The position numbers were made by a program, and so were the translations under genes. Below are positions 160-39,755 of a stretch of DNA of 40,804 bases, in pieces. Each line of letters starts with the position of its first letter. Position 1 is the first letter of the stretch. The stretch lies in contig DSAP01000166.1 of the NCBI GenBank assembly GCA_011046415.1, positions 1 through 40,804 of the forward strand, read 5' to 3'. The notes beneath the pieces are model-generated. The model was not told the origin of the DNA. It did not search any database and saw nothing but the letters and a program-made list of their open reading frames with translations. This DNA comes from a bacterium. Its GTDB lineage: Bacteria > Zhuqueibacterota > QNDG01 > JABMRT01.

Positions 160-195
160 GTCGATTAGATATGATAATATGTGCCGGAGGAAGAG

Positions 196-1050
196 ATGAA
201 CCGTCGATACCGTCTGGTCTTTAATGCCGTCATCCTGTTTTTGGTTTTCACGGTTTCCGTTTTTTCTCAAGGAAAAATCACCATCGCCGTTCTCGATTTT
301 GAGGCCAAAAACATCACGCAGCAAAGTGCCGAGGCGGTCACGGACATCTTGCGCACCGAACTGTTCAATACAGGCGCATTCAGGGTCGTCGAGCGGCAGA
401 GGATACAGAGAATCCTCGAGGAACAAAAATTCCAGATGTCCGGTCTGACCGATCCGGATCAAGCCGCCGAAATCGGACGTCTCCTCAATGTCGAAAAAAT
501 TATGGTCGGATCCGTCACCCGGCTGGGTTCGACCTTTATCATCAACACCCGGATCGTCGAGGTACAGACCGGACTGGTCGAATTGGCCGAGGCGGCCGAA
601 TGCCGCGGCGGTGAAGAACAGCTCCCCCGCGCCATCACCGAGCTGGCGCTCAAAATCTTCTATAAGGTCGGCCTCGAGGGCGCGATCATCCGCGTCGACG
701 GGGAAGAAATCTACATCGATCTCGGGAATGCCGACGGCGTCAAACTGGGACAGTATCTTGATGTGATCCGGAAAGGGGATGTGATCACCGACCTCGAAGG
801 ACGCATCATCGGAACCAGGCAGGAGACCATCGGGCACGCCCTGATCACGAAAGTGCAGGACCGGTTTTCCGTAGCCGCCGTGCATACCCGGAAAGAAGCG
901 TTCCGGAAGGGAGACTTGGTGCGTCCTTCCGAATCCGATCCGCCCCCGAAACCGGTGGAACGGCCGGCCAGGCGGACCGAAGAACCCGCCCCGAAACCGG
1001 CGGAGAAGGACACCGAGACAAAAAAGGTGGATGTGCCGATCCTGTTCTGA
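196..1050 (+). CDS. CsgG/TolB-N-like periplasmic protein with FlgT-C-like C-terminal domain
   Basis: Signal peptide MNRRYRLVFNAVILFLVFTVSVFSQ, then ITIAVLDFEAKN...DILRTELFNTGAFRVVERQRIQRILEEQ...IGRLLNVEKIMVGSVTR, typical of the CsgG/TolB-N fold. The C-terminal part has GAIIRVDGEEIYIDLGNADGVKLGQYLDVIRKG...F..GDLVR. GGAGGA lies upstream of ATG 196; the tracked ORF starts at GTG 181. Confidence 0.8.
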   Translation: MNRRYRLVFNAVILFLVFTVSVFSQGKITIAVLDFEAKNITQQSAEAVTDILRTELFNTGAFRVVERQRIQRILEEQKFQMSGLTDPDQAAEIGRLLNVEKIMVGSVTRLGSTFIINTRIVEVQTGLVELAEAAECRGGEEQLPRAITELALKIFYKVGLEGAIIRVDGEEIYIDLGNADGVKLGQYLDVIRKGDVITDLEGRIIGTRQETIGHALITKVQDRFSVAAVHTRKEAFRKGDLVRPSESDPPPKPVERPARRTEEPAPKPAEKDTETKKVDVPILF

Positions 1051-1151
1051 TGACCGACGAGGGAAGGACGACCGGACACGACGTAAAGTATGCGGCGGGG
1101 ATCACAGAATCAACAGTCTCATTATCCTATACCGTGGCGCCGGATCGAAAC

Positions 1152-1961
1152 ATGACTGCGCGACTCTATCAAACCCTGATTGTCTTATTTCTTATATCGG
1201 CTGTCGGCTTCCGGAAAACGGCGGGAGCCTCGTTCTATCCCGGCCTGAATTACGGAAACGCACGGCTCGGCATGCAGGGAATCGGGCTGGCGCAACCGCC
1301 GGACGATGCGGTAACCGGTCACCTGTTCGGCCCCTCCGCCCTGCTCGAGGCCGGCCGATGGACGGCCTCGGTTTCCGGTTATTTCGGCGGATATTCCTTC
1401 GGGTTCGCGGAATATAAGGGCTTTGTGAAGGGCGAAGACGGCCGCGTCCTGACCGATATGTGGGGAGACGCGTTTGTCTTTCTCAGGCAGAATCTGAAGA
1501 GTCCGGGAAGATGGATCCATGCGGAGGGGCGTCTGGCCTATCGCCTTCACCCCCTCTTTTCCCTGACCGCGAACGGGATCTACCGGCGGTACACGCGCCC
1601 CGAACAGCCGGTCACCGCCGCATTGTATACCGTCGATCCGGCGAACTACGCGTGGTACGGCGAGGCGGAAATTGAAACCGTCCTCCCTGCGTACAAGAAC
1701 GAAGGGGCCTTTGCGGGCGGCGGCGGGACCTTCGAGATCGCCGTATTCGGATCCCCTGTTTCGCTCGACGGATCCGCCGCCCTCCTCGCGCCGCTCGACC
1801 GGGACCAGGATCTCAGAACGGTGTGGGACGCCGGTGTATCCTGGAATTCACCGGGAGGGTTCGTCCTGCGTATCGGATACCGGGACGAACGAAATGCCCA
1901 TGATCCGGCGCGGGAACGGATCCGGGGATTTGGGCTGGCGTTACAATACAACGTATTGTAG
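1152..1961 (+). CDS. predicted outer-membrane beta-barrel/exported protein
   Basis: Hydrophobic N-terminus MTARLYQTLIVLFLISAVGF, then alternating aromatic/Gly pattern (FYPGLNYGNARLGMQGIGLAQPPDD; GFGLALQYNVL* C-terminus). An alternative start at ATG 1050 overlaps the preceding stop (TGATG). Confidence 0.65.
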   Translation: MTARLYQTLIVLFLISAVGFRKTAGASFYPGLNYGNARLGMQGIGLAQPPDDAVTGHLFGPSALLEAGRWTASVSGYFGGYSFGFAEYKGFVKGEDGRVLTDMWGDAFVFLRQNLKSPGRWIHAEGRLAYRLHPLFSLTANGIYRRYTRPEQPVTAALYTVDPANYAWYGEAEIETVLPAYKNEGAFAGGGGTFEIAVFGSPVSLDGSAALLAPLDRDQDLRTVWDAGVSWNSPGGFVLRIGYRDERNAHDPARERIRGFGLALQYNVL

Positions 1962-2023
1962 TCGGTGAAACAAATTGCGGACGCGCCACGCGTTCAACCA
2001 TCCACACAACCAAGGAGGAACCC

Positions 2024-2758
2024 ATGAAGGCAAGAGGAATCGTGATCGCACTGTGCATTTTCTGCCTGGCATCCGGATACGCATTCGCCCAGTCGGGTAC
2101 GGTATTCAGCGTCGGCGTCAGTTACTGGCGTGCTGCCCTCGAATTTGAATTCGAAGAGGAGGATGAATTTGACGTGGATTGGTCCATCAAACCGGCCAAT
2201 TTATTAGGCCCCTACGCCAACGTACGGCTGGGCAACCTCGTGCTCGGCGGATCGATGTTCACCGGAACATTCGTCGTCGACTTCGGGGATCTGTTCGATA
2301 TATGGGATACGAAATATGATCTCAAAATAAAACGGACGGATCTGAATTTCTCGGCGGGGTATTCGCTCTCACGCAACCTGACGCTTTTCGGCGCATATAA
2401 AGATATGACTTACAAATTTGAAGAATCGTTAACATACGAAGATTACTGGACCGGTTACGAGACGACCGAAAAAGACGAATGGGAAGAAAAAGGTTCCTTC
2501 GTCGGCGGCGGTCTGTCCCTGGTCTTTCCGTTCCCGGGTTCGTCTCTGTTTGCTTATGGTTCGGCGGCCTATCTGTCCGCACAGAAAGAGGACTGGTCCA
2601 ATATCACCACCCTCACGGTCGGGCTGGGAATGGCCCTCCAACCCAATCTCTCCGCGATGGTGGGATACCGGGTCGATTCATCGAGCAATGATGATGAGGA
2701 AGGGATCACCGAGAAAATCAAGGGAATCACGGCCACCCTGGCCTATACGTTCCGGTAA
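2024..2758 (+). CDS. outer-membrane beta-barrel protein
   Basis: AAGGAGG RBS, signal peptide MKARGIVIALCIFCLASGYAFAQ, amphipathic strands, terminal aromatic residue (TATLAYTFR*). Confidence 0.75.
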   Translation: MKARGIVIALCIFCLASGYAFAQSGTVFSVGVSYWRAALEFEFEEEDEFDVDWSIKPANLLGPYANVRLGNLVLGGSMFTGTFVVDFGDLFDIWDTKYDLKIKRTDLNFSAGYSLSRNLTLFGAYKDMTYKFEESLTYEDYWTGYETTEKDEWEEKGSFVGGGLSLVFPFPGSSLFAYGSAAYLSAQKEDWSNITTLTVGLGMALQPNLSAMVGYRVDSSSNDDEEGITEKIKGITATLAYTFR

Positions 2759-2784
2759 TATGTCGGACCGATATGCATCTTGAA

Positions 2785-2820
2785 CCGCCGTCCCCGTCCG
2801 CTTCCGGACGGGGACGGCGG
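2785..2820. repeat. perfect 16-bp inverted repeat with 4-nt loop (hairpin; possible transcription stop without U-tract)
   Basis: CCGCCGTCCCCGTCCG-cttc-CGGACGGGGACGGCGG, 27 nt after the stop at 2758. Confidence 0.85.
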
Positions 2821-2833
2821 CCAAAGATTTGTC

Positions 2834-2861
2834 TTGACTTTTTCAAAATAAGGCTTAATTT
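2834..2861 (+). promoter_or_regulatory. putative sigma70-type promoter for tRNA-Gly and possibly the downstream genes
   Basis: TTGACT (2834-2839), 16-nt spacer, TAATTT (2856-2861). Confidence 0.55.
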
Positions 2862-2890
2862 GATCCAGAGAAAATCCGGAAAAACGACAG

Positions 2891-2963
2891 GCGAATGTAG
2901 CTCAGTTGGTAGAGCGCCAGCTTCCCAAGCTGGATGTCGCGGGTTCGAATCCCGTCATTCGCT
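2891..2963 (+). tRNA. tRNA-Gly (anticodon CCC)
   Basis: Acceptor GCGAATG/CATTCGC, anticodon stem CCAGC/GCTGG around loop TTCCCAA, GGTTCGAATCC T-arm. Confidence 0.95.
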
Positions 2964-3020
2964 CTTTTTATTGGATGTACGGATTCCAAACTCAACCCAT
3001 TCCTAAGGAGGAGGACAACC

Positions 3021-3932
3021 ATGTTTGGAAATCACAGGGAAATAGGAGCGGTGTGTCTGATGGTTCTGCTTCTTCCTGTCCTCGTATTCGGCCAGGGATA
3101 TGTGCAGCAGATGGGCACGGGCGGCAATGTGGATTGGACCCATCAGGTCATCCGGGCCACGGGTATCGGCGCACCGAATCCGACCGCCCCGCTGGCCGCG
3201 CAGCGCGCCGGGGCCATCAAGGCCGCGGAATCCGACGCCATGCGCAACCTGATCGCCACGGTCAAGGGCGTCAACCTGACCTCCGAGACCATCGTCGAGA
3301 ACGCGATGCTCGCGAGCGATGTCATCACCACCCGGGTGGCCGGAGTGATTCGGGGGTTTCGCAAAGTCGACACCCGTTATCTGTCGACCGGCGATGTCGA
3401 GGTCGAAATCGAAGTCCCGATGACAGGCATCCTGCTCGATGCGCTGTTGCCGGCGACCTTCGGCGGGGGCATGCTGATGACCGGCGCGGTCTGCCCGACC
3501 TGCGGGCAGCCCTGGCCGGCAGGCAGGCCGATGCCGGCGGACATGCAGGCCGCGCATTCGGGTGATTATACCGCCGCCGCGCCGTCCGGCGGAGCCTATA
3601 CGGGGCTGATCGTCGATGCCCGGGGGCTGGGTCTGCGTCCGGCCATGGCGCCGAAGGTGCTCGACGAACAGGGTGAGGAAATCTACGGTTCCCGCTTCGT
3701 GAGCCGCGAATATGCGGTGGATATCGGCATGGCCGGTTATGACAAAGACATCAATCGCGCCCGGTCGAACGAACGCGTCACGGCCAACCCCCTGATCGTC
3801 AAGGGCCTCAAGGCATCTGGTCCGAACAGAACGGACGTGGTGATTGCGGCCGGCGAAGCGGCGCGTATCCATGCCGCGGCCGCGGACATGAACTTCCTGC
3901 AGCGATGCAAGGTGATGTTCGTCCTAGACTGA
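3021..3932 (+). CDS. LPP20-family-like exported protein
   Basis: AAGGAGGAGG RBS. Signal-like N-terminus ...VLVFGQ. LPP20-like core QRAGAIKAAESDAMRNLIATVKGVNLTSETIVENAMLASDVITTRVAGVIRGFRKVDTRYLSTGDVEVEIEVPM. Confidence 0.75.
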   Translation: MFGNHREIGAVCLMVLLLPVLVFGQGYVQQMGTGGNVDWTHQVIRATGIGAPNPTAPLAAQRAGAIKAAESDAMRNLIATVKGVNLTSETIVENAMLASDVITTRVAGVIRGFRKVDTRYLSTGDVEVEIEVPMTGILLDALLPATFGGGMLMTGAVCPTCGQPWPAGRPMPADMQAAHSGDYTAAAPSGGAYTGLIVDARGLGLRPAMAPKVLDEQGEEIYGSRFVSREYAVDIGMAGYDKDINRARSNERVTANPLIVKGLKASGPNRTDVVIAAGEAARIHAAAADMNFLQRCKVMFVLD

Positions 3933-3982
3933 GCATATTCAGGGCTCCGATGACACGAACTTTTCCAGGAAAGAGGTGCCTT

Positions 3983-5137
3983 ATGCGAAGACAGACGCTG
4001 TTGTTGATCCTCTCCGGCGTAATCGCCGGACTCATCCTGTCCGGCTGCGGCCCGAAACCCATCGCCAGGGAATCGATTCTGGACACGCCGGAGAATCATT
4101 ATAACCAGGGGCTCCGGGCGCTCGACCGCGGACAACTCGAACAGGCCGCGCAAAATTTCAACCGCGCCACGGCCCTGAATCCCAATTATCCCGGCGGATA
4201 TGTCGGGATGGGGCTGGTGCTCGCGGAGCAAAAACAGTTCAGGCAGGCGCTCGAATCGGTGGACAAAGGTCTGGGCAAGGATAAAAATTTCGTGGACGGC
4301 TACATCGCAAAGGGCCGGATCCTGGTCAAACAGCGCAGGGGGGACAACTGGCTCAAGGACGCGCTGAAAGAATATGAACGGGCCCTGAAAATCAATCCGA
4401 ATTCAGACGCGGCCATGTATCATACGGGAATGGCGTACAAGGGGGCTTTCGAATTCCGTAACGCCGAAAACGCCTTCAGCCGTGTGATCGAGCAGAAAGG
4501 CGACTACGCCAAACCAGCCAACGCCGAATGGGAGCTGGTCCAGAAAATCATCCGGGCGGCCCCCGGAACCAAAATCGGGGCACAGATCGCCCTCATTCCC
4601 CAGATCGACCGGGCCGACCTGGCCGTCCTCTTCATCGAAGAACTCAAGCTCAACGAGGTGATGGCCCAGAAACAGAAGAAAACCTATGACACGGGATTCC
4701 GCGCACCGGACGACCCGACCGCGATGCAGACCACGACCCGGACGCAGATGGCCACGGCGACCGACATCGGGGACCACTGGGCTAAAAACTGGATCGAAGA
4801 CATCCTGAAACTCGGGGTGATCGATCCGTTCCCGGACCGCACCTTCCGTCCGAACGAAAAGATCACCCGTGCAAATTACGCCATGTTCCTTCAGAACATC
4901 CTGCTCGCGGTCACGGGCGATGACGCCCTGGCGACCCGATATATCGGCACGCCGTCGCGTTTTCCGGATGTCAATGCGAGCCATTTTGCCTACAACGCCA
5001 TCTGTCTGGCGGTCGACCGGGGGATTATGAAAGCCGGCACCCTGGACGGCGCCTTCGGCATGGCCGATCCGGTCTCCGGCGCGGACGCGCTTCTGATTAT
5101 CCGGGAACTCCAGAACCATCTCAGGATGACGTTCTGA
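3983..5137 (+). CDS. lipoprotein with TPR repeats and C-terminal SLH domains
   Basis: Lipobox-like MRRQTLLLILSGVIAGLILSGCG; TPR motifs (NHYNQGLRALDRGQLEQAAQNFNRATALNPNYPGGYVGMGLVLAE); two SLH-like repeats (IGDHWAKNWIEDILKLGVIDPFPDRTFRPNEKITRANYAMFL; FPDVNASHFAYNAICLAVDRGIM). Confidence 0.88.
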   Translation: MRRQTLLLILSGVIAGLILSGCGPKPIARESILDTPENHYNQGLRALDRGQLEQAAQNFNRATALNPNYPGGYVGMGLVLAEQKQFRQALESVDKGLGKDKNFVDGYIAKGRILVKQRRGDNWLKDALKEYERALKINPNSDAAMYHTGMAYKGAFEFRNAENAFSRVIEQKGDYAKPANAEWELVQKIIRAAPGTKIGAQIALIPQIDRADLAVLFIEELKLNEVMAQKQKKTYDTGFRAPDDPTAMQTTTRTQMATATDIGDHWAKNWIEDILKLGVIDPFPDRTFRPNEKITRANYAMFLQNILLAVTGDDALATRYIGTPSRFPDVNASHFAYNAICLAVDRGIMKAGTLDGAFGMADPVSGADALLIIRELQNHLRMTF

Positions 5138-5153
5138 ACTCCGGGAGGCGATT

Positions 5154-6335
5154 GTGAAAAAAATGATCCGTTATGGAATCCCGCTGCTGGCGGGATTCCT
5201 TTTCCTGTTTTCCGGCCACGCGCAGACCGACGAGACCCGTGAGGTAATCTCGAGCGGCGTCGGCTCTATCATCGGCGGCGATGTGGCGCATGCGCGTGAC
5301 AACGCGATCGAAGACGCCCTGCGCAGGGGCATCGAGCAGGTGCTCGGCACCCTGGTCGAGTCGGAGACGCTGGTCGAAAATTTCCAGCTGATCGAAGACA
5401 ACATCATGACCCGGACGCGCGGGTATGTCCAGAGATACGAGGTGGTCAATGAGAGCCGCCGAAGCGCCGAACTCTATGAGGTCGCGGTCCGTGCCGTACT
5501 CAAGATCTCCGACATCCAGGACGATCTCGAAGGCATCGCCACTCTGATGCGCCGTAAAAACACGCCGCGCCTGATGGTGATGATCGAGGAGAAAAACATC
5601 GGCGAGACCCCCGGGTTTCACTACGTTGAAACCGAAATGAATACCGCGGAAACGGCGCTGATGAATTACTTCATGGCCAAGGGATTCCGGTTCATCGACC
5701 GGGCCACGGTGCAGCGGTATCTCGACCAGCAAAAGGCCTCGGCCATCCTGCAGGGCGACGCCGCACTGGCCTCCGCGCTCGGAAAACAGGTCGGAGCCGA
5801 GATGGTCCTGACCGGCAGGGCGATCGCCAAGGCCACCGAAACCGAGGCGTTCGGCGCGCGGATCCGTTCGCAGCAGGCCACCGTGCAGGTCAGGGCCATC
5901 CGCACCGATACGGGCGATATCATCGCCACCTCGAGCGGACAGGGTGCGCACCCGCACATCGACGATGTGCAGGGCGGCGTGCTGGCCATCCAGAAGGCCT
6001 GTGACAAGCTGGCCGGACCGCTCATGACCCAGATCCTGAATCACTGGCAGGCCGACGTCTCGGGCGGCGGCACGATCGTGCTGAATGTCCAGAACGTGGC
6101 CGATTACATGCAGCTCAACCGGTTCAACAACAGCCTGAGATATTATGTCAGGGGTCTGCAATCCGTAACCCAGCGCAGTTTTTCGGACGGCTTCGCGGTG
6201 CTCGAGGTGGTGATGCGGGGCAGCGCGGACGACCTGGCCCAGCGGCTCTCCGGCAGGGACATGGAAGGTATCCGGATCCGCGTCACCGGCATGACCCAAA
6301 ACAGCGTGACCGTGCAGCTGGTGCCTGAAAACTGA
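5154..6335 (+). CDS. FlgT-N/LPP20-like exported protein
   Basis: Signal peptide ...GFLFLFSGHAQ; ARDNAIEDALRRGIEQVLGTLVESETLVENFQLIEDNIMTRTRGYVQRYEVVNESRRSAELYEVAVRAVLKI resembles FlgT_N; CsgG/TolB-like middle (GKQVGAEMVLTGRAIAKA). Confidence 0.75.
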   Translation: MKKMIRYGIPLLAGFLFLFSGHAQTDETREVISSGVGSIIGGDVAHARDNAIEDALRRGIEQVLGTLVESETLVENFQLIEDNIMTRTRGYVQRYEVVNESRRSAELYEVAVRAVLKISDIQDDLEGIATLMRRKNTPRLMVMIEEKNIGETPGFHYVETEMNTAETALMNYFMAKGFRFIDRATVQRYLDQQKASAILQGDAALASALGKQVGAEMVLTGRAIAKATETEAFGARIRSQQATVQVRAIRTDTGDIIATSSGQGAHPHIDDVQGGVLAIQKACDKLAGPLMTQILNHWQADVSGGGTIVLNVQNVADYMQLNRFNNSLRYYVRGLQSVTQRSFSDGFAVLEVVMRGSADDLAQRLSGRDMEGIRIRVTGMTQNSVTVQLVPEN

Positions 6336-6469
6336 TCCGTCAGGATCGATCGCTCGCCGCGGGACGGTTTCCGCGCGGACGGATCGTCGGCAACCGGTAA
6401 CGATCATAAATATCAAGACGCGAATGAATCGGACACGGCGTCCGTATTCGATGAGCAAGGAGGCGTACC

Positions 6470-7375
6470 ATGAAAACAAAATTCAGCAAGGGAATCCTGT
6501 TTTTTCTCGTGATGATCCTGTCTGCTTCGGCGTTCGGGCAACTGAAAAAACGCGTCGCGGTCTTCGTGTTTGAAGACAAGACCGATCGCAGCTGGCGCTG
6601 GTGGGACGGCAAGACCCCGGGAGACGGCATGGCGGACATGCTGACCACCGAACTGGTGAAATCGGGGAAATACAGCGTGATGGAACGCCAGGAAATCGCG
6701 AGGATCATGGAAGAACAGAATCTCGGGGTGACCGGCCGGGTCACCGAACAGAGCGCCGCGAAAATCGGCCAGCTGCTCGGCGTCGAACTGGCGGTGATGG
6801 GTGCGGTGACCGAATTCGGACACGCCAAGAGCGACAAGGGCGGACGGGTCAGGGGGTTCGGCCTGGGCGTCAGCAGCCAGAAGGCCACGGTCGCCGTGGA
6901 CGTCCGCTTTGTCAATACGAGCACCGGTGAGATCATCGCCGCCGAGAATATCCGGCAAGAAGAATCCTCCAGCGGGCTCTCTGTGAGCACGCCCCAGGTC
7001 GACTTCAGAAACCGGAATGATTTCGACAACTCACTCGTCGGCAAGGCTACGCGCGCCTGCATCGAGGAGATCGTCGGTCTCGTCGAGAAACAGATGGCCG
7101 TCCTTCCGTGGGAAGGCAAGGTGATTCAGGTCAGCGGCGCAAACATTTTCATAAAGCCGGGGGCGGATTCCGGCGTCAAGGTGGGAGACACCTTCGTCGT
7201 CTACTCCAAAGGCGAGGAACTGATCGATCCCGATACGGGCATTTCACTCGGGAGCGAAGAGACCCGGATCGGTACCATCGAGGTCACAGCCATGATCTCC
7301 GGCGGCCAGGCCGCCAGGGCGACGGCCAAATCCGGGAGCGGTTTCAAGCAGGGAGATTTAATCCGGCTCCGGTAG
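6470..7375 (+). CDS. CsgG-family-like protein with FlgT-C-like C-terminal domain
   Basis: AAGGAGG RBS; signal peptide ...LSASAFGQ; KRVAVFVFEDKTDRSWRWWDGKTPGDGMADMLTTELVKSGKYSVMERQEIARIMEEQ...IGQLLGVELAVMGAVTEF; C-terminal GKVIQVSGANIFIKPGADSGVKVGDTFVVYSKG...GDLIRLR. Confidence 0.85.
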   Translation: MKTKFSKGILFFLVMILSASAFGQLKKRVAVFVFEDKTDRSWRWWDGKTPGDGMADMLTTELVKSGKYSVMERQEIARIMEEQNLGVTGRVTEQSAAKIGQLLGVELAVMGAVTEFGHAKSDKGGRVRGFGLGVSSQKATVAVDVRFVNTSTGEIIAAENIRQEESSSGLSVSTPQVDFRNRNDFDNSLVGKATRACIEEIVGLVEKQMAVLPWEGKVIQVSGANIFIKPGADSGVKVGDTFVVYSKGEELIDPDTGISLGSEETRIGTIEVTAMISGGQAARATAKSGSGFKQGDLIRLR

Positions 7376-10040: not shown

Positions 10041-11352
10041 ACCCATCGTCGCGATCGTCGGCCGGCCCAATGTCGGCAAATCGACGCTGTTCAACCGGAT
10101 CATCGGCCGCAAGGAGGCCATCGTGGACGACCAGCCCGGCGTCACCCGCGATCGCAAGTATGCGGACGCGGAGTGGCAGCAGGCGTTCTTCACGCTCATC
10201 GACACGGGCGGCTACATCCCGCGCACCGGGGATGTGATCGAGACAGGCGTCACCGCGCAGGTCCGGTACGCCATGGACGAGGCCGACCTGATCCTCTATG
10301 TGGTGGACGCCACCACGGACATCACCGATGTGGACGGCGATGTGGCCGAACTGCTGCGCAAGGGAGGGAAACACTGCATCCTCGTGGCGAACAAGGCCGA
10401 TAACCCGGCCCGCGAACTGGATGCGGCCCGGTTCTACCGGCTCGGCCTGGGAGAGGTCATGCCCGTTTCCGCGATCGGGGGGCGCGGCATCGGCGATCTC
10501 CTCTCGGCCGTCACGGCGCATCTGGCGGACCTGGACTTTGCGCCATCCGCCCCCCCCCTGGATGACGCGGTGCGGATCGCCGTCGTGGGGCGGCCCAACG
10601 CGGGCAAATCGACCTACATCAACACGGTACTCGGCGAGGAGCGGTTGCTGGTGACCGAGACACCGGGCACGACCCGCGACGCGGTGGATGTCCGGTTCAG
10701 GACGCGCGGGCGCGATGTCCTGTTCATCGACACGGCCGGCCTCCGCCGCCGCAAGCGGGTCAGCGAGGATGTGGAATTCTACAGCACGCTCCGCACGCGG
10801 AGGGCCATCGCGGGCTGCGACGTGGCGTGCGTATTCGTGGATGTGACCGAAGGCCCGACCCAGCAGGACATGCATGTGCTGAACGAGGTCATCGAAAGGC
10901 GGAAAGGCATCGTGGTCGTCGTCAATAAATGGGATGTGATCGCAGACGATCCGCATCAGGTCTGGCTCTACCGCCAGAACCTGGATCAAAAAATGCAGGG
11001 GCTGGACTACGTGCCCGTGCTCGAGATCTCCTGCAAATCCGGCCTCCGGGTGAAGCGCGTGCTCCGCATGGCGCTGGACGTGGCGGCGGAGCGGGAAAAG
11101 CGTATTCCTTCTCCGGATCTGAACCGGCTCATCGAGGCATTTCACAGGCACTATCAGCCTCCCGCGGTCCGGGGGAAACGGATCCGGGTGATGTACGGTG
11201 CTCAGATCGGGGTCAAGCCGCCGCTCTTCTCGTTCTTCCTGAATTACCCGGAACTGCTCAAGCCGGAATACAAACGGTATATGGAGAACCGGCTCCGCCG
11301 GGAGTTCGGATTCAGGGGCGTGCCCGTTTCGATGCTGTTCAGGAAAAAATAA
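10033..11352 (+). CDS. der: ribosome biogenesis GTPase Der (EngA)
   Basis: Tandem G domains: GRPNVGKSTLFN...DTGGY and GRPNAGKSTYIN...DTAGLRRRKRV; C-terminal KH-like domain; overlaps the upstream CDS by 8 nt. Confidence 0.97.
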   Translation: MDKPIVAIVGRPNVGKSTLFNRIIGRKEAIVDDQPGVTRDRKYADAEWQQAFFTLIDTGGYIPRTGDVIETGVTAQVRYAMDEADLILYVVDATTDITDVDGDVAELLRKGGKHCILVANKADNPARELDAARFYRLGLGEVMPVSAIGGRGIGDLLSAVTAHLADLDFAPSAPPLDDAVRIAVVGRPNAGKSTYINTVLGEERLLVTETPGTTRDAVDVRFRTRGRDVLFIDTAGLRRRKRVSEDVEFYSTLRTRRAIAGCDVACVFVDVTEGPTQQDMHVLNEVIERRKGIVVVVNKWDVIADDPHQVWLYRQNLDQKMQGLDYVPVLEISCKSGLRVKRVLRMALDVAAEREKRIPSPDLNRLIEAFHRHYQPPAVRGKRIRVMYGAQIGVKPPLFSFFLNYPELLKPEYKRYMENRLRREFGFRGVPVSMLFRKK

Positions 11353-11369
11353 AAAAGAGGAAGCGGATT

Positions 11370-13445
11370 GTGTTATCGGGATTTTCCGTGAGGCGATGGA
11401 TACTCGTGGTGCTGGCCGGTTTTACCGCCCCGGGATTCTCCGGCGACCGGATCCGGGAGGATCTGAACTCCGGCCGGATTTCTCAGGCGGATGCCGTGTA
11501 TTATGAGGCGCTCCGGCTGGTTTCTCCGGACGATCTTCCCGGACGGTATGCCCGGTCCGATCCGCCCGTGATCAAGAGCGGCACGCCGGCCGCCTTCGGT
11601 GTCCGTCAGGCCTGGTCCCGGTTGACCGCCGTACAGCGGGATCGGCTCCGCCCTGTCGCGACGCGTCCCCGGCTTCCGTTTTCTTATGTCAGCCCCGACG
11701 GCCTCTTCCGGGTTCATTATGACACCAGCGGAGTCCATGCCGTGCTTATCGAAGACCTGAACGGATCCGGTGTGCCCGATTATATCGAACGCGCGGCGGA
11801 ATATCTCGACCTGGCCTATGACGTCCAGATCCGGCAAATGGGATTCCGTGTCCCGCCCGCCGACCCCGTGGACGGTCCGGAATGGGACGCCTACATCGAG
11901 AACCTGCCGGGCACCTATGGATGGACGACGCCGGACGTCAAGGTCAGTGTCTCGCCGGACCGGTATACCGCGTACATGCGGTTCGACAACGACTACAATC
12001 ATACCTATTCGAAAGGGCTCGACGGCCTGCGCGTGACCACGGCCCATGAGTTCTTCCACGTCGTCCAGTTCGGCTACGTGGCGCGCGACGAATCCGGAAC
12101 CGGCGATTTGGATGACCGGTTCCTCATGGAGGCCTCCGCCACCTGGATGGAAGATGTCGTGCACGGCGATGTAAACGATTACCTGAATTATCTTCCCCAT
12201 TTTTTCAGCCGGAACAACGTCCGGTTCGATCATGTGGACGGCATCCGGGAATACGGTTTGTCGATCTGGTTCCATTTCCTGGAAAAGCGATATCCGGGCA
12301 TGCCGTTCATCCGGCTGATCTGGGAGACCCTCGTCACCTTTCCGGCGCTGCGGGCGCTGGACGAGGTGCTCACGGATTTCGGATCGTCTTTCGGTCGGCA
12401 GCTCGCCTTGTTTTACGGATGGAACCGGATGACCGGATCGCGGGCCGACACGATCCGGTTTTACCCGGAGGGCCATCTGTATCCGGAAATCCGGACGGAC
12501 GGCGCCTTCACCTTTACGAAAGACACGATGCTGACCGAATGGGTGCGGCCCACTGCGGCGCGCTATTACGAATTCAGGGAGGCCGACGGCTACAATCACA
12601 CGCTCATCCCGGTCAACACCGGATCGCCGGCCATGCTGAGCGGCGAGTGCAACGTCCCGCTCCTCATCCGCGATACCCATACGGCCTATACCGAAATCAG
12701 CCCGGGCCGCCATACGGGATTGCTGTCGGAGGACGATGTCGTCTGGGAGCTGACGGCCGTTGTCCGGGACCCGGACGGATCCGACCGGATGATCCGGGTG
12801 CCTACCACTCTGGACGCCCCCCTCGGTTCCATCTCCGGCATCGTCTGGCACGACGTCGACCGCAACGGATTGTTCGACGAAGAAATGGAAACTGGGATCC
12901 GGGACGTGCGGCTGTCTCTGACCGAAGCCGGGGAAGACGGGATTTTCGGATCTGAAGACGACGTCCTCTTCCCCGCGGCCGTGACACAGGCCGGCGGACG
13001 CTTCCGCTTTCCCGGACTCGAGCCGGGCGTGTACCGCGTCGAATTGAGCGACGCCACCCTGCCGGACGGTTTCGTGTCCACGACGGGCGACCCGGCCCGG
13101 ACGGTCATCCTGTCGGAAAACACGGATGTGACGTCTTTGCGTTTCGGTTTCGCGCCCCTCGACTGGCTGCCTGCGGCCTTCCCCCAGCCGTTTCATCCCG
13201 CGCTGCACGGGGAAATGAAGATCCCGTTCACCCTTCAGGAAGCCGGGACCGTACGGCTCGCGCTCTACACCTTGTCCGGTTACCGGCTGCTGGAAGAGAC
13301 CGCGCATTTCAGTGGCGGGCTCCATTTCTTCCGCTGGTCGGGGCTGGACAGCCGGGACCATCCGGTTCCGGCCGGCGTGTATCTGTATGTGCTGGAGGCC
13401 GATTCGCGGGTGCTGAGGCGGGAGAAAATCGCCGTCGTCCGATAA
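11370..13445 (+). CDS. secreted putative zinc metalloprotease (MXAN_6640-like) with SdrD-B-like domain and FlgD/T9SS-like C-terminus
   Basis: HExxH in TTAHEFFHVVQFGY with downstream FLMEASATWMED; SISGIVWHDVDRNGLFDEEMETGIRDVRLSL (SdrD-B-like); C-terminal FPQPFHPAL...AGTVRLALYTLSGYRLLEE...WSGLDSRDHPVPAGVYLYVLEA. Start is GTG 11370 after an AAGAGGAAG RBS. Confidence 0.85.
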   Translation: MLSGFSVRRWILVVLAGFTAPGFSGDRIREDLNSGRISQADAVYYEALRLVSPDDLPGRYARSDPPVIKSGTPAAFGVRQAWSRLTAVQRDRLRPVATRPRLPFSYVSPDGLFRVHYDTSGVHAVLIEDLNGSGVPDYIERAAEYLDLAYDVQIRQMGFRVPPADPVDGPEWDAYIENLPGTYGWTTPDVKVSVSPDRYTAYMRFDNDYNHTYSKGLDGLRVTTAHEFFHVVQFGYVARDESGTGDLDDRFLMEASATWMEDVVHGDVNDYLNYLPHFFSRNNVRFDHVDGIREYGLSIWFHFLEKRYPGMPFIRLIWETLVTFPALRALDEVLTDFGSSFGRQLALFYGWNRMTGSRADTIRFYPEGHLYPEIRTDGAFTFTKDTMLTEWVRPTAARYYEFREADGYNHTLIPVNTGSPAMLSGECNVPLLIRDTHTAYTEISPGRHTGLLSEDDVVWELTAVVRDPDGSDRMIRVPTTLDAPLGSISGIVWHDVDRNGLFDEEMETGIRDVRLSLTEAGEDGIFGSEDDVLFPAAVTQAGGRFRFPGLEPGVYRVELSDATLPDGFVSTTGDPARTVILSENTDVTSLRFGFAPLDWLPAAFPQPFHPALHGEMKIPFTLQEAGTVRLALYTLSGYRLLEETAHFSGGLHFFRWSGLDSRDHPVPAGVYLYVLEADSRVLRREKIAVVR

Positions 13446-20683: not shown

Positions 20684-22039
20684 ATGACCCCCCCCCTGCC
20701 CTCTTTCGATGCGTTCGTCGAAAAAATGCTGATTCACAACAAACTCATCGGAGAAACCCAGCTGAAACAGGCCCGGACGTTCCTGGATCAGAACTCCGGC
20801 CAGACGCTGCTCGATGTCCTGACCCGGGCCGGCATCGTGAAGGAGCGCCACGCGGAGATCATCCGGCGCCGGTATCAGGAACTGCAGTCCGGGGGAACCA
20901 ACCAAACCGCATCCGTCGCACCGGAGCCGCCCCCTTCCGGCGCCCCGTCCGCGAAGCCGGACGGCCAGGCGGCCCGGACGCTGCCCGATTATCTGGCCGC
21001 GAGCCGCAAACTGGGCGCATCCGATCTCCACATCATCCCCAATCTGCCGCCCGTCATCCGGCTGCACGGCCGGCTGAAACGTCTCCAGGACCGAAAGCTT
21101 TCCGCGGAAGAGACGGAGGCGCTGCTGTTCGGCGTGCTGTCTCCGGAGGCGCGGGACCGGCTCCATCACAATCAGGCGCTGGACACCTGCCTCGAGATTC
21201 CGGGCCAGGGGCGCTACAGGAGCTGCTTCATCCGGCAGACCACCGGCTGGGACGGCGCGTTCCGGATCATCCGCACCGAAGTGCCGACCCTGAAATCGCT
21301 GGGCCTGCCGGAAAGCGTCCAGCGGCTCACCGAATACAACCAGGGACTGGTCCTCGTGACCGGACCGGCGGGGGCGGGCAAATCCACGACGCTGGCCGCC
21401 ATGGTCGAGCTGGTCAATCAGACCCGGAACGAGCACATCATCACGCTCGAAGATCCGATCGAATATGTCTTCACGCCCGTCAAATCGCATATCAGCCAGC
21501 GCGCCGTCGCGTCTCACACGCTGAGTTTCGCCGCGGCCCTGCGCGCGGCCCTGCGTGAGGATCCGGACGTCATCCTGATCGGCGAACTCCGTGACCGGGA
21601 CACCGCATCTCTGGCCATCACGGCCGCCGAAACCGGCCATCTGGTATTCGCCACGCTGCATACGAACAGCGCTTCCCAGACCATCATGCGGCTCATGGAT
21701 TTTTTCCCGCCCGACCAGCAGGGACAGATCCGGGCCATGGTCAGCGAATCGATCCGCGGCATCGTCTGCCAGCGTCTGATCCCGGCGAAATCCGGGGACG
21801 GCCGGGTATTGGCGCTCGAGATCATGTTCAACAATTCGGCCATCGCGAACCTCATCCGGGAAGACAAGTTGTTCCAGATTCCCAACATGATCCGCATCAA
21901 CCGCAGGGACGGCATGCAATTGCTCGAGGAATCCATCCAGGAACTGCTACGGGCCGGCCGGATCGATCCGACGGAGGCCCATCATGCGATCGTGGAACAG
22001 ATGCTGTTCCAGGATCAGGGCGAAAACAAGGGGCGCTGA
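20684..22039 (+). CDS. PilT-type type IV pilus ATPase with additional N-terminal domain
   Basis: Walker A GPAGAGKSTT; DPIEYVFT...SHISQRAVASHTLSFAAALRAALREDPDVILIGELRD; ~80-aa N-terminal extension plus linker. Confidence 0.9.
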   Translation: MTPPLPSFDAFVEKMLIHNKLIGETQLKQARTFLDQNSGQTLLDVLTRAGIVKERHAEIIRRRYQELQSGGTNQTASVAPEPPPSGAPSAKPDGQAARTLPDYLAASRKLGASDLHIIPNLPPVIRLHGRLKRLQDRKLSAEETEALLFGVLSPEARDRLHHNQALDTCLEIPGQGRYRSCFIRQTTGWDGAFRIIRTEVPTLKSLGLPESVQRLTEYNQGLVLVTGPAGAGKSTTLAAMVELVNQTRNEHIITLEDPIEYVFTPVKSHISQRAVASHTLSFAAALRAALREDPDVILIGELRDRDTASLAITAAETGHLVFATLHTNSASQTIMRLMDFFPPDQQGQIRAMVSESIRGIVCQRLIPAKSGDGRVLALEIMFNNSAIANLIREDKLFQIPNMIRINRRDGMQLLEESIQELLRAGRIDPTEAHHAIVEQMLFQDQGENKGR

Positions 22040-22048
22040 GGAAAACAT

Positions 22049-23119
22049 ATGGCGAAAATCGACAGCCTGTTCGACGTCCTGCTTGCACAAGAGGGCTCCG
22101 ATCTGCATCTGCTCGAGGGAGAGCGGCCCAAGATCCGCGTCCACGGGTGGCTGAAGCCCATCGAAAAGGAACCGGCGCTGACACGCGAAACCCTCCAGGG
22201 TTATCTGGAGGAAATCTGCGAGCCGGACCGTTGGGCACGTTTCCTCGAAACCATGGACCTCGATTTCGCCTACGAGAAGGATGCCCGGTTCCGGTTCCGT
22301 TCCAATTACTATTTTCATCTGAAGGGCATGGGAGCGGTTTTCCGGACCATCCCGACCGAGATCCAGACGATGGAGACGCTGAATCTTCCCCCCGTCCTGA
22401 AAACATTCGCACAGTTGCGCTCCGGCCTGGTGCTCGTGACCGGACCCACCGGTTCGGGAAAATCCACGACTCTGGCCGGACTGATCGATTATATCAATCA
22501 GACCGATTCCCGCTATATCCTGACGATCGAAGAGCCCATCGAATTCGTCCATCAGAACAGGAAGAGTCATTTCTGCCAGCGGGAGGTCGGCGTGGATACG
22601 CCCTCCTTCGCGGCCGCCCTGCGCGACGCCTCACGCCAGGATACGGACGTCATCCTCGTGGGCGAGATGCGCGATTACGAGACCATCGCGCTCGCCATTT
22701 CCGCGGCGGCCATGGGCACGCTGGTCTTCGGGACGCTGCACACCAATTCGGCGAGCAAGGCCATCGACCGGATCATCGATGTGTTCCCGGCCGAGGAACA
22801 GAACAAGGCCCGCACCATGCTGTCCGATTCATTGCGCGGCGTCTGTGCGCAGCTTCTGTTGAAACGCAAGGGCGGCGCGGGACGGATCGCGGCGAATGAA
22901 ATCCTCCTGGCGACCCAGGGGTTGTCCAAGAGCATCCGCGAGGGCAATCTCTCCAACATCCGCAACATCATCCAGGCCGGCAAGTCCAACGGCATGCAGC
23001 TCATGGACGACGTGATCGAGAAATATCTCGCCGAACGGATCATCGACGGCGAGGAGGCCTATTTCAAGGCCCAGGACAAGAAGCGTTTCATCCAGTACGC
23101 GCCGAAGGGACTGGCGTAG
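22049..23119 (+). CDS. pilT: PilT/PilU-type twitching ATPase
   Basis: GPTGSGKSTTLAGLIDYIN; EEPIEFVHQNRKSHFCQREVGVDTPSFAAALRDASRQDTDVILVGEMRDYET. Confidence 0.93.
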   Translation: MAKIDSLFDVLLAQEGSDLHLLEGERPKIRVHGWLKPIEKEPALTRETLQGYLEEICEPDRWARFLETMDLDFAYEKDARFRFRSNYYFHLKGMGAVFRTIPTEIQTMETLNLPPVLKTFAQLRSGLVLVTGPTGSGKSTTLAGLIDYINQTDSRYILTIEEPIEFVHQNRKSHFCQREVGVDTPSFAAALRDASRQDTDVILVGEMRDYETIALAISAAAMGTLVFGTLHTNSASKAIDRIIDVFPAEEQNKARTMLSDSLRGVCAQLLLKRKGGAGRIAANEILLATQGLSKSIREGNLSNIRNIIQAGKSNGMQLMDDVIEKYLAERIIDGEEAYFKAQDKKRFIQYAPKGLA

Positions 23120-36966: not shown

Positions 36967-38427
36967 TCAATTCACAACCATGACTTTACCCCATAGCGGA
37001 GGGCGTCCGGGGATGTCGATCCGGTAAAAATAGACCCCGTTGGCCACCATGTCTCCGAGATCGTTTCTCCCGTTCCAAGCCTCGGCATGATCACCGGGAG
37101 GACGGAACGCCTGTTCGATCAGGCTGCGAACCCGTTTCATCCCGAAATCATAGATGCGCACGGTCACGGCCGCGTCCCGGACAAGCCGGTACTGGAACCG
37201 CACGTGGCCGTCATCTCCCGCGCGGTTGTGCCGCAGCGGAGAGAATGGGTTGGGAAAGGCATAGGTTGCCGGAGTCCCGTCTTCGCCCGGGGACATGTAG
37301 GCCTGAAATATGCGCCATTCAAATCCGTCCGGAGAATAGGCCAGCCCGTCGGATGTGCCGACCCAGAGTCCGGATTCGCCGTCCGCCGCCGCCGTATGAA
37401 CGCCCGTGGCGTAAAGACGCCTGCCGGTCGCAGCGGCCCGGTATTCGGGGAACACGGCCCATGTCGCGCCTGCGTCGATGGATTTATAGAGTCCCTCATC
37501 CGTGGCCGCGTACACGATGGAATCGTCGACGGCAAAATTATGCGCGAAGACGCCCGGGAGCACGACCCGCCAGGTGAGCCCGCCGTCTTCGGTCACCGAC
37601 ACGGCGCGGTACTCGCTCTCCCCGAGCGCGTTGACCGTCGCGGCCCACAGGAGGTCTCGCGATGCGGTTTTTTGGGATTTCAGCGCCACCACGAAATTTC
37701 CGGAGATGCCGTGCGGCTGATTCTGATGGGTGAAGGTGGTCCAGTTCTCCCCTTCGTCCGTGGATTTGTGAATGCCCCCGGCCGTGCCGACCCAGACCGT
37801 CTGACCGTCATAATGAACGGAAAAAGCCCGGTGGCTCAGATGATCCAGCGCCGCGAACGGCAGGCCGTCCACCGTGACCACCTCCCAGGCGGCATCCGGA
37901 TCCTCGACGGCGGATCGTCTCAGTCCGCCTCCGAAACTGGCGATCCAGACATGATCCCGCGAGATGGCGATATCATAGGTCAGGTTCTGGACATGGGTGG
38001 TCGTGGGTTTGTACCGCGTCTCATCCCGGCTGTCCCTGGGCTGCGGCATCCAGCGCCAGGTCTGTCCGCGATCCGTGGATACGGACAGCCCGCCCCCCGC
38101 GGGGAGATTTCCTGCATCCCGAATGAGCGTGTCAAACGCGGTCGCCACCCAGATCAGCGCGCCGCGCTTGGCGACCGCGCTCACCCCGCCCTTGCCGAAT
38201 CCGTCCTCGCGGGAGTAATGAAGCCATGTGTCTCCCTTGTCCGCGGTATAGGAGAGTCCGCTGCCGGATCCGACCCAGACCGTGTCTCCGGAGACGAAAA
38301 GATCATTGATGCCGTTGCTGTTGAGCCGGGCGGAGATTTCGGAAAGGACCGCGTGGGTCCGGGCGTGAAGAGCCGCCGGCCCCCGGATTATTAATAGAAA
38401 GGCGATAAAGAGAATGCTCCGTTTCAC
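36967..38427 (-). CDS. exported beta-propeller (sialidase/BNR-like) protein with FlgD/T9SS-like C-terminal domain
   Basis: Repeats VWVGSGSGLSYTADKGDTWLHYS, VWVGTAGGIHKSTDEGENWTTF, VYAATDEGLYKSIDAGATWAVF; C-terminal FPNPFSPL...AAVTVRIYDFGMKRVRSL...WNGRNDLGDMVANGVYFYRIDI. Confidence 0.87.
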   Translation of the reverse strand: MKRSILFIAFLLIIRGPAALHARTHAVLSEISARLNSNGINDLFVSGDTVWVGSGSGLSYTADKGDTWLHYSREDGFGKGGVSAVAKRGALIWVATAFDTLIRDAGNLPAGGGLSVSTDRGQTWRWMPQPRDSRDETRYKPTTTHVQNLTYDIAISRDHVWIASFGGGLRRSAVEDPDAAWEVVTVDGLPFAALDHLSHRAFSVHYDGQTVWVGTAGGIHKSTDEGENWTTFTHQNQPHGISGNFVVALKSQKTASRDLLWAATVNALGESEYRAVSVTEDGGLTWRVVLPGVFAHNFAVDDSIVYAATDEGLYKSIDAGATWAVFPEYRAAATGRRLYATGVHTAAADGESGLWVGTSDGLAYSPDGFEWRIFQAYMSPGEDGTPATYAFPNPFSPLRHNRAGDDGHVRFQYRLVRDAAVTVRIYDFGMKRVRSLIEQAFRPPGDHAEAWNGRNDLGDMVANGVYFYRIDIPGRPPLWGKVMVVN

Positions 38428-38431
38428 CGGT

Positions 38432-39586
38432 TTACTCCGTCACTTCCATTTCATGGCGGATCACCTCGCTCGTCAGGCTTCCGCGGTCCTCGGCGTAAAA
38501 ATCGAAACGATAAATTCCGAGCGCATTTTGCGGACCGATCCCGATCATCAGGGAATAGATGCCGTCTCCGGCTTCCGCATCACCCTGGGTTCCGTCGTCG
38601 GTCATGAGGAACGGATTGCCCTGTGACGCGGATCCGTCCGGCCTGAATGTGTTGAAATAGACCCGCAGGATGTCGTCGGGCCCCTGGGGATCGATTGCCT
38701 CGACCGTGAGCAGGATCGGTTCTCCGGCGTTCCGGGAGATCCGGTCCGGCGCTTGCAGTTTGGAAAGCACGGGCGGATCGTTCCGCCGGATCACCGCCGT
38801 CACGCCGACGAAAGGACGGCTTTCGAGTCCGCGGCGGTCCCTGGCCTGGAACCGGAACGTATAGTCTCCGGAACTCAGGAAAACGGGACGCAAATCCCGG
38901 CGGACGGCGAACCGGCCGTCTCCGGCCGTGGAATCTCCGTCTTCACCCTGGTCGTTCAATTGCAGCCGGCAGGATGGTGCGGGAGAATACGGCGGATAGA
39001 CATCACACCAGACCGAATCCACTTCCCCGGGATCCTGGGGGTCGAACACGGTGATTTCAAAATACGCGTTTTCCAGTTCTTCCAGGTCCGGAAGCACCGG
39101 GAAAACAGGATGAGACAGCCGGGGAGGATCATTCGGCGCGCCCGCCGCCACGACGGTGGAATCCGCGGCGGGATCGCTCTCATGTCCCGACCTGTCGACG
39201 GCGATGACACGGATCGCGAAGCGTCCCGTCCGTCCCGAAAAGACGGCGGGGAAAAGCAGGCCGTAAAACAGGCCGTCTCCGGCGATGATGTCTCCGTTCT
39301 TTCCGTCGTCCGCCATTTCCGCTTCATGACGGACCTGTCCTGATGCGTCGAGGACGGAAAACCGGACGGCGGCGATATCCGAGAGTCCCTGCGGATCTTG
39401 GACCCTCACCCGGACGGCTGAAGGCGATGGCGATCCGATCCGGATCGTATCCGGCACGGAAAGCCCGGAGAGATAGGGATGCACCGCATCCTCGGATACG
39501 GGATTTTGGACCTCACAGCCCGAAAAAACCAGCACGACAATAAAAGAAACAGCTGCAAGTAAAATAAGATATGATTTATGCATCAT
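38432..39586 (-). CDS. lipoprotein with Ig/cadherin-like repeats (choice-of-anchor-X-like)
   Basis: Lipobox MMHKSYLILLAAVSFIVVLVFSGC; repeated VRVRVQDPQGLSDIAAVRF...DDGKNGDIIAGDGLFYG, DPQDPGEVDSVWCDV...DDSTAGDGRFAV-like, DPQGPDDILRVYF...DDGTQGDAEAGDGIYSL. Confidence 0.83.
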   Translation of the reverse strand: MMHKSYLILLAAVSFIVVLVFSGCEVQNPVSEDAVHPYLSGLSVPDTIRIGSPSPSAVRVRVQDPQGLSDIAAVRFSVLDASGQVRHEAEMADDGKNGDIIAGDGLFYGLLFPAVFSGRTGRFAIRVIAVDRSGHESDPAADSTVVAAGAPNDPPRLSHPVFPVLPDLEELENAYFEITVFDPQDPGEVDSVWCDVYPPYSPAPSCRLQLNDQGEDGDSTAGDGRFAVRRDLRPVFLSSGDYTFRFQARDRRGLESRPFVGVTAVIRRNDPPVLSKLQAPDRISRNAGEPILLTVEAIDPQGPDDILRVYFNTFRPDGSASQGNPFLMTDDGTQGDAEAGDGIYSLMIGIGPQNALGIYRFDFYAEDRGSLTSEVIRHEMEVTE

Positions 39587-39597
39587 GGGTTGAATCC

Positions 39598-39662
39598 AAA
39601 AAAAAATCCGAACACCGCAAGGGAAAAGACACCTCTTGCCGAAAGGCATTCCTCGGTTCGGA
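39598..39662 (-). terminator. intrinsic-terminator-like branched hairpin with T9 tract
   Basis: Outer stem TCCGAAC...GTTCGGA, inner GCC-TTTC-GGC and CAAG/CTTG pairings, T9 on minus strand. Confidence 0.65.
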
Positions 39663-39755
39663 TCATCTCGGGCCTCTAACAACATCCGTTTACTGGACAT
39701 CACAAAACTTCACATTCTCAAGATGCGCTCAGAGGCCTCCGTTTCGAATCAAAAT
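39598..39755 (-). ncRNA. candidate structured leader or small RNA between pdxJ and the lipoprotein gene
   Basis: Starts just after a consensus promoter. 7-bp stem GGCCTCT/AGAGGCC (39731-39737 with 39671-39677), then TCCGAAC/GTTCGGA stem (39656-39662 with 39607-39613) followed by nine U residues (39598-39606). Confidence 0.5.

Follow-up and report, generated by a model that had tools for sequence, protein, structure and literature searches.

In the outer membrane, CsgG forms an oligomeric pore. FlgP and FlgT, which have the SHS2 fold in common, assemble into rings associated with the outer membrane, and a beta-hairpin inserted behind the SHS2 helix has been linked to this assembly (PMC12222027). 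Their genes and that of FlgO are neighbors in Vibrio (PMC3948606; PMC6375700). The three proteins, known from the H-ring and basal disk, are regarded as additions to the flagellum, and where they came from has yet to be settled. Tp0624 of Treponema pallidum is proposed to act in the envelope; its domains 1 and 2 are a functional pair of unknown role, the second of them being a new fold (PMC5104382). SLH proteins can tether the outer membrane to the cell wall in OmpM phyla (PMC10628300). The subject here is a four-gene operon, D-E-F-G, in which domains of these kinds are encoded side by side. It lies on contig DSAP01000166.1 (assembly GCA_011046415.1), whose 40,804 nucleotides were analyzed as a whole and are called the window. 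The window is one entire contig of a metagenome-assembled genome (3.11 Mb, 92% complete); the nearest named relatives of this genome carry the label candidate division KSB1, which we take to be the group that NCBI names Candidatus Zhuqueibacterota. The operon has roughly even chances of encoding an undescribed, flagellum-independent ring of the periplasm and outer membrane, made of FlgOPT-like parts and fixed to the cell wall. The component proteins are of known kinds; their combination, their spread and their independence of the flagellum were not found described in the literature searched, and no paper describing the D-E-F-G gene set was found in a search that did not extend to preprints and most subscription journals. 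The operon and its upstream border comprise:

2891-2964, + strand: tRNA-Gly (CCC), found by ARAGORN; upstream border of the operon
3021-3932, + strand: gene D, exported protein with an LPP20/FlgP-type SHS2 domain (~40-133) and a Tp0624-type domain (~187-303)
~3983-5137, + strand: gene E, lipoprotein with an LSGC lipobox, TPR repeats and two SLH repeats (Pfam TPR and SLH)
5154-6335, + strand: gene F, exported protein with an FlgT_N (SHS2) domain, a CsgG/FlgT_M-like domain and a C-terminal domain of its own in place of FlgT_C
6470-7375, + strand: gene G, full-length CsgG domain and an FlgT_C/TsaP-like C-terminal domain, no lipobox

The sequence-only reading had treated the seven genes at 181-7375 as one set of co-directional exported proteins. 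Their orientation and export are borne out by seven open reading frames on the + strand with signal-peptide-like N-termini (open reading frame list). However, the tRNA-Gly gene splits the region into A-B-C (181-2758) and D-E-F-G (3021-7375). The unit is taken to be D-E-F-G because these four genes are conserved whereas the upstream genes are not, A and C having homologs in few relatives only. A seven-gene complex was ruled out, as relatives do not keep A-B-C together with D-E-F-G and the tRNA gene lies between them; there is no support for counting in the two barrels or the first CsgG-like protein. The start of D is placed at ATG 3021 rather than at 2934, since the latter position falls within the tRNA. 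Of the 14 distinct KSB1 genomes scanned, 12 have the tRNA-Gly(CCC) gene directly 5' of D, and this adjacency (2891-2964; loci L038-L066) makes a shared promoter or co-transcription possible.

Gene order was compared in 40 regions from relatives, some of them incomplete regions cut by contig ends. The order D-E-F-G occurs in 22 of them, and in four of the 22 a second G-like gene follows; the remaining regions hold D-G (6), G without the others (9) or partial sets (3). Neighboring operon genes are separated by a median of 30-45 nucleotides. The full set is syntenic through KSB1 and Calditrichota, and D-F-G without E is found in Zixibacteria and Edwardsbacteria. Of 388 genomes, 130 have an F family member; ~76 of the 130 belong to other phyla, and in ~28 of these the match is near full length. 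Outside the phylum, 20 F regions were examined, of which one (L191) seems to share its Calditrichota genome with L156. In 14 of the 20, F has D, E or G as a neighbor, and these include D-E-F-G in further phyla, where E is again a TPR and SLH protein. Conserved synteny, which the sequence-only reading had left to be checked, is thus present across phyla for the four genes. In the 82 genomes of the phylum used for association tests, F is nearly always accompanied by G (48 of 49 F-positive genomes, p=1e-6); like the tests of F against flagella given below, this one ignores kinship among the genomes. A scan for the G family over one genome per species (84,980 species) returned 80 loci. Within the phylum there was no clear sign of horizontal transfer, and the D and F trees broadly follow lineages. 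Genes for an AI-2E transporter, a DUF512 radical SAM protein and the Der GTPase often lie 3' of the operon in the relatives' regions. Upstream neighbors differ by lineage (miaA/mutL, a sigma factor and others, named by eye from sequence), and no conserved cargo or barrel gene was found upstream in the relatives' loci. In the Edwardsbacteria-like loci L147, L148, L172 and L173, proteins that have a GARARGMGGAF motif and look like PorV/UPF0164-type barrels are encoded 5' of D; three of the four loci also have a larger protein there that contains a G-like domain.

The folds of D, F and G are not unrelated to those of the known ring proteins. Pfam LPP20 is found in 34 of 37 members of the D family, and many members have a CPxC motif between the two domains. 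In profile searches, the N-terminal part of D matches FlgP of solved rings (PDB 8z5n, 1e-5) and the C-terminal part matches Tp0624 (PDB 5jir, 1.6e-17). The AlphaFold2 model of D, with a predicted local distance difference test score (pLDDT) of 83.6, is matched by Foldseek to Tp0624 with an E value of 1e-14 over 288 columns and a template modeling (TM) score of 0.63-0.64 by query length. Aligned to FlgP, D has an insert of FlgP-like length and sequence after its SHS2 helix. None of the D members has a lipobox, and D, which stops after its second domain, gave no match to an OmpA domain. In the F family, FlgT_N is found in 30 of 42 members; the assignment of this domain to the window's own F was below threshold when that protein was taken alone, and it stands through the family members and a structural match to FlgT. 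The F model (pLDDT 84.1) has its best Foldseek matches in FlgT of the Vibrio LPHT ring (8z5n_0, 4e-10) and in FlgT 3w1e (1.7e-9). The domain arrangement of F nevertheless differs from that of FlgT, since whole-chain TM scores are only 0.25-0.38. PelC was found to be structurally similar to part of F, and one F member gave a sub-threshold match to FlgO (0.0075). A lipobox is absent from 40 of 42 F members, the one in the window included.

G is matched by Pfam CsgG (PF03783) at 1.7e-39 over profile positions 4-208 of 210 and by a profile of CsgG 4uv2 at 1.4e-10. Its alignment with E. coli CsgG runs through the first membrane hairpin with few gaps, and the hairpin segments are kept in length. An FlgT_C-like tail is present in 14 of 21 G members, none of which has a lipobox-like motif. 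Similarity to LpoB is weak and below the cut-off, and no LysM domain was matched in G. A second CsgG-type protein, ~30% identical, is encoded 3' of G in some KSB1 families (L047, L049, L052, L055, L068, L108). Orthologs of G with 47-56% identity occur in Bacteroidota (Marinifilum, Flexithrix, Saprospiraceae) with no recognizable D, E or F nearby (L092-L095, L120, L124, L142, L155), which offers a cultured context for studying G alone. The two SLH repeats of E score over the cut-off, and a segment ahead of them (IDRADLAVLF) may by eye be a degenerate third. A lipobox-like motif is present in 21 of 27 E members, and E is the only SLH gene found in the source genome. The CsgG, FlgT_C, LPP20, TPR and SLH assignments made from the letters alone are therefore real, as judged from Pfam and family members. 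Likewise, FlgT-type modules are indeed split over proteins, F combining FlgT_N with a CsgG/FlgT_M-type domain and G combining CsgG with FlgT_C.

The resemblance of F to FlgT and of D to FlgP, together with the neighborhood of the flgT, flgO and flgP genes in Vibrio, raises the question of whether the operon is a flagellar accessory, related to the H-ring or basal disk and kept where flagella were lost or missed. However, neither FlgI nor flagellin was found in the source genome, and both are absent in most of its order. The window itself has no flagellar or curli operon, as had been noted. FlgI is present in 26 and absent from 40 of the G-positive genomes, compared with 5 and 11 of the G-negative ones (82 genomes, Fisher p=0.77), and F tends, if at all, to be less common in flagellated genomes (p=0.04, clade-confounded). 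Whether a genome has the operon does not depend on flagella. Where relatives are flagellated, the contig with the operon is not the one with FlgI, so that constant adjacency to flagellar operons is not the case, and almost every LPP20 match in the phylum is D rather than an FlgI-adjacent gene. Conservation in many flagellum-less families speaks against a relic. The flagellar accessory was rejected on the FlgI and flagellin searches in 99 relatives and is considered very improbable. Separately, G-positive genomes without F are mostly flagellated (12 of 18, versus 14 of 48; p=0.01, clade-confounded). The earlier proposal of an undescribed, flagellum-free envelope complex is thus supported for the four-gene core by cross-phylum synteny, by hidden Markov model and structure or profile matches and by the lack of a flagellar link.

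Other functions can be considered for the same genes. G could be a CsgG-type secretion pore for a specific surface protein or polymer, gated and anchored by D, E and F. That G spans the entire CsgG profile, hairpins included, fits such a channel, as does the resemblance of part of F to PelC, a CsgG-fold ring serving polysaccharide export. However, G lacks a lipobox, CsgF is absent from the source genome and present in only two of the 99 relatives, and no cargo gene is conserved upstream, where neighbors vary by lineage; such a role is credible but unlikely. A curli system as such was rejected on the absence of CsgF and of a lipobox in G, CsgE and CsgA not having been searched for. A somewhat less probable function is stabilization of the outer membrane or its coupling to the cell wall without a pore, either by tethering rings or patches or by regulation of cell-wall synthesis in the manner of LpoA/LpoB. 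In its favor are the SLH repeats on a TPR lipoprotein, given the tethering role of SLH proteins at the outer membrane of OmpM phyla, the second domain of D, common to Tp0624 with its proposed envelope role, and the weak similarity of G to LpoB. The last is, however, below the cut-off and accounted for by a shared fold, and the four OmpA-domain proteins over the cut-off in the source genome would make tethering redundant. Finally, genomes with D and G only or with G only might suggest that functionally unrelated exported proteins are adjacent by chance, but the same order in several phyla and the co-occurrence of F and G make this scarcely conceivable.

In the proposed ring assembly, the exported proteins D, F and G carry no lipid anchor. 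As a CsgG-type protein that keeps its hairpin segments, G would build a ring at the outer membrane and possibly open a channel. The FlgT-like F and the FlgP-like D would make up or support rings in the periplasm, surrounding G or lying beneath it, like FlgT and FlgP in the Vibrio H-ring. E would be lipid-anchored in the outer membrane, its TPRs holding the ring proteins and its SLH repeats clamping peptidoglycan or a polymer on it, which would couple the assembly to the cell wall. Ring formation, the contacts between the proteins, pore activity and a cargo are thus what we infer for the operon, and the assembly could be either an export channel or a structural collar. Several observations weigh against this model. 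In the monomer models of D and F, the insert linked to ring formation is helical or of low confidence rather than a hairpin, so that ring formation by these proteins is putative. Physical contact between D, E, F and G is suggested by gene order only. Unlike curli CsgG, G has no lipid anchor, and the second of its hairpin segments is polar. In several lineages only D and G, or G alone, are kept, and the four proteins are therefore not strictly obligate partners. On a wider view, which is possible but rather doubtful, D-E-F-G (with D-F-G as its core) would be a widespread, undescribed outer-membrane nanomachine using FlgP/FlgT/CsgG ring modules outside flagella and curli, maybe close to the non-flagellar stock behind FlgOPT rings. 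The operon is a concrete candidate both for a role of these rings outside the flagellum and for their source. In addition, it places Tp0624-type domains in a testable setting and hints at an outer-membrane machine in almost wholly uncultured phyla.

Upstream of the tRNA gene lie three further genes:

181-1050, + strand: gene A, exported protein with a CsgG fold and an FlgT_C-like part (Pfam CsgG 2e-17, FlgT_C 9e-7)
1152-1961 (start 1050 or 1152), + strand: gene B, putative outer-membrane barrel, no Pfam match
2024-2758, + strand: gene C, putative outer-membrane barrel, weak matches to outer-membrane protein models

Gene A is a separate unit with homologs limited to few relatives. They lie upstream in L038 and L046 and are grouped with genes in L148, L172 and L173; against the FlgO model, A gave a sub-threshold match only (0.044). 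The A stop overlaps a possible B start (TGATG, 1048-1052), which hints at translational coupling, with 1152 as the alternative start. No homolog of B was seen at the relatives' loci, an absence read only from L038 and L046, where A is followed directly by C. Homologs of C are found near the operon in some genomes of the same order (L038, L040, L043, L046). The beta-barrel assignment is plausible for both B and C. Elsewhere in the window, large secreted proteins (10929-13445, 36967-39703) have SdrD_B, FlgD_ig or choice-of-anchor C-terminal domains, which suggests a C-terminal sorting system, possibly similar to the type IX secretion system. A tandem pair of T2SSE-family ATPases (20684-23119) are likely type IV pilus motors.

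The operon can be set beside several described systems. In Vibrio FlgT, the N, M and C domains are in one protein; F has the N and M domains and matches FlgT within the solved ring, but the C-type domain sits on G and A. Relative to the Vibrio H-ring, which is flagellar, the FlgT modules are thus divided between F and G, the set includes a TPR-SLH lipoprotein, a flagellum is missing and FlgO appears only as sub-threshold matches. D shares the FlgP/LPP20-type domain of Vibrio FlgP but carries another C-terminal domain. It matches domains 1 and 2 of Tp0624 in fold and the second also in sequence, without the OmpA-like third domain, and the Tp0624 paper has no partner set resembling E-F-G (PMC5104382). 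F is also matched weakly over most of its length by the NCBIfam model of the Leptospira protein LipL46 (1.3e-11, 44 of 400 bits), far under the family cut-off, and the window's F has no lipobox. The C-terminal domain of G matches TsaP, the type IV pilus secretin-associated protein (3jc8, 4.5e-9); the rest of G is CsgG, without LysM. Like the OmpM-type tethers, E has SLH repeats, expected to bind the cell wall, and an outer-membrane attachment, but it is a TPR lipoprotein rather than a beta-barrel and is encoded beside ring-type proteins. Similarly, G aligns to the whole domain of curli CsgG, hairpin segments included, but lacks its lipobox, has an extra FlgT_C-like domain and is found with other operon partners in a genome without CsgF.

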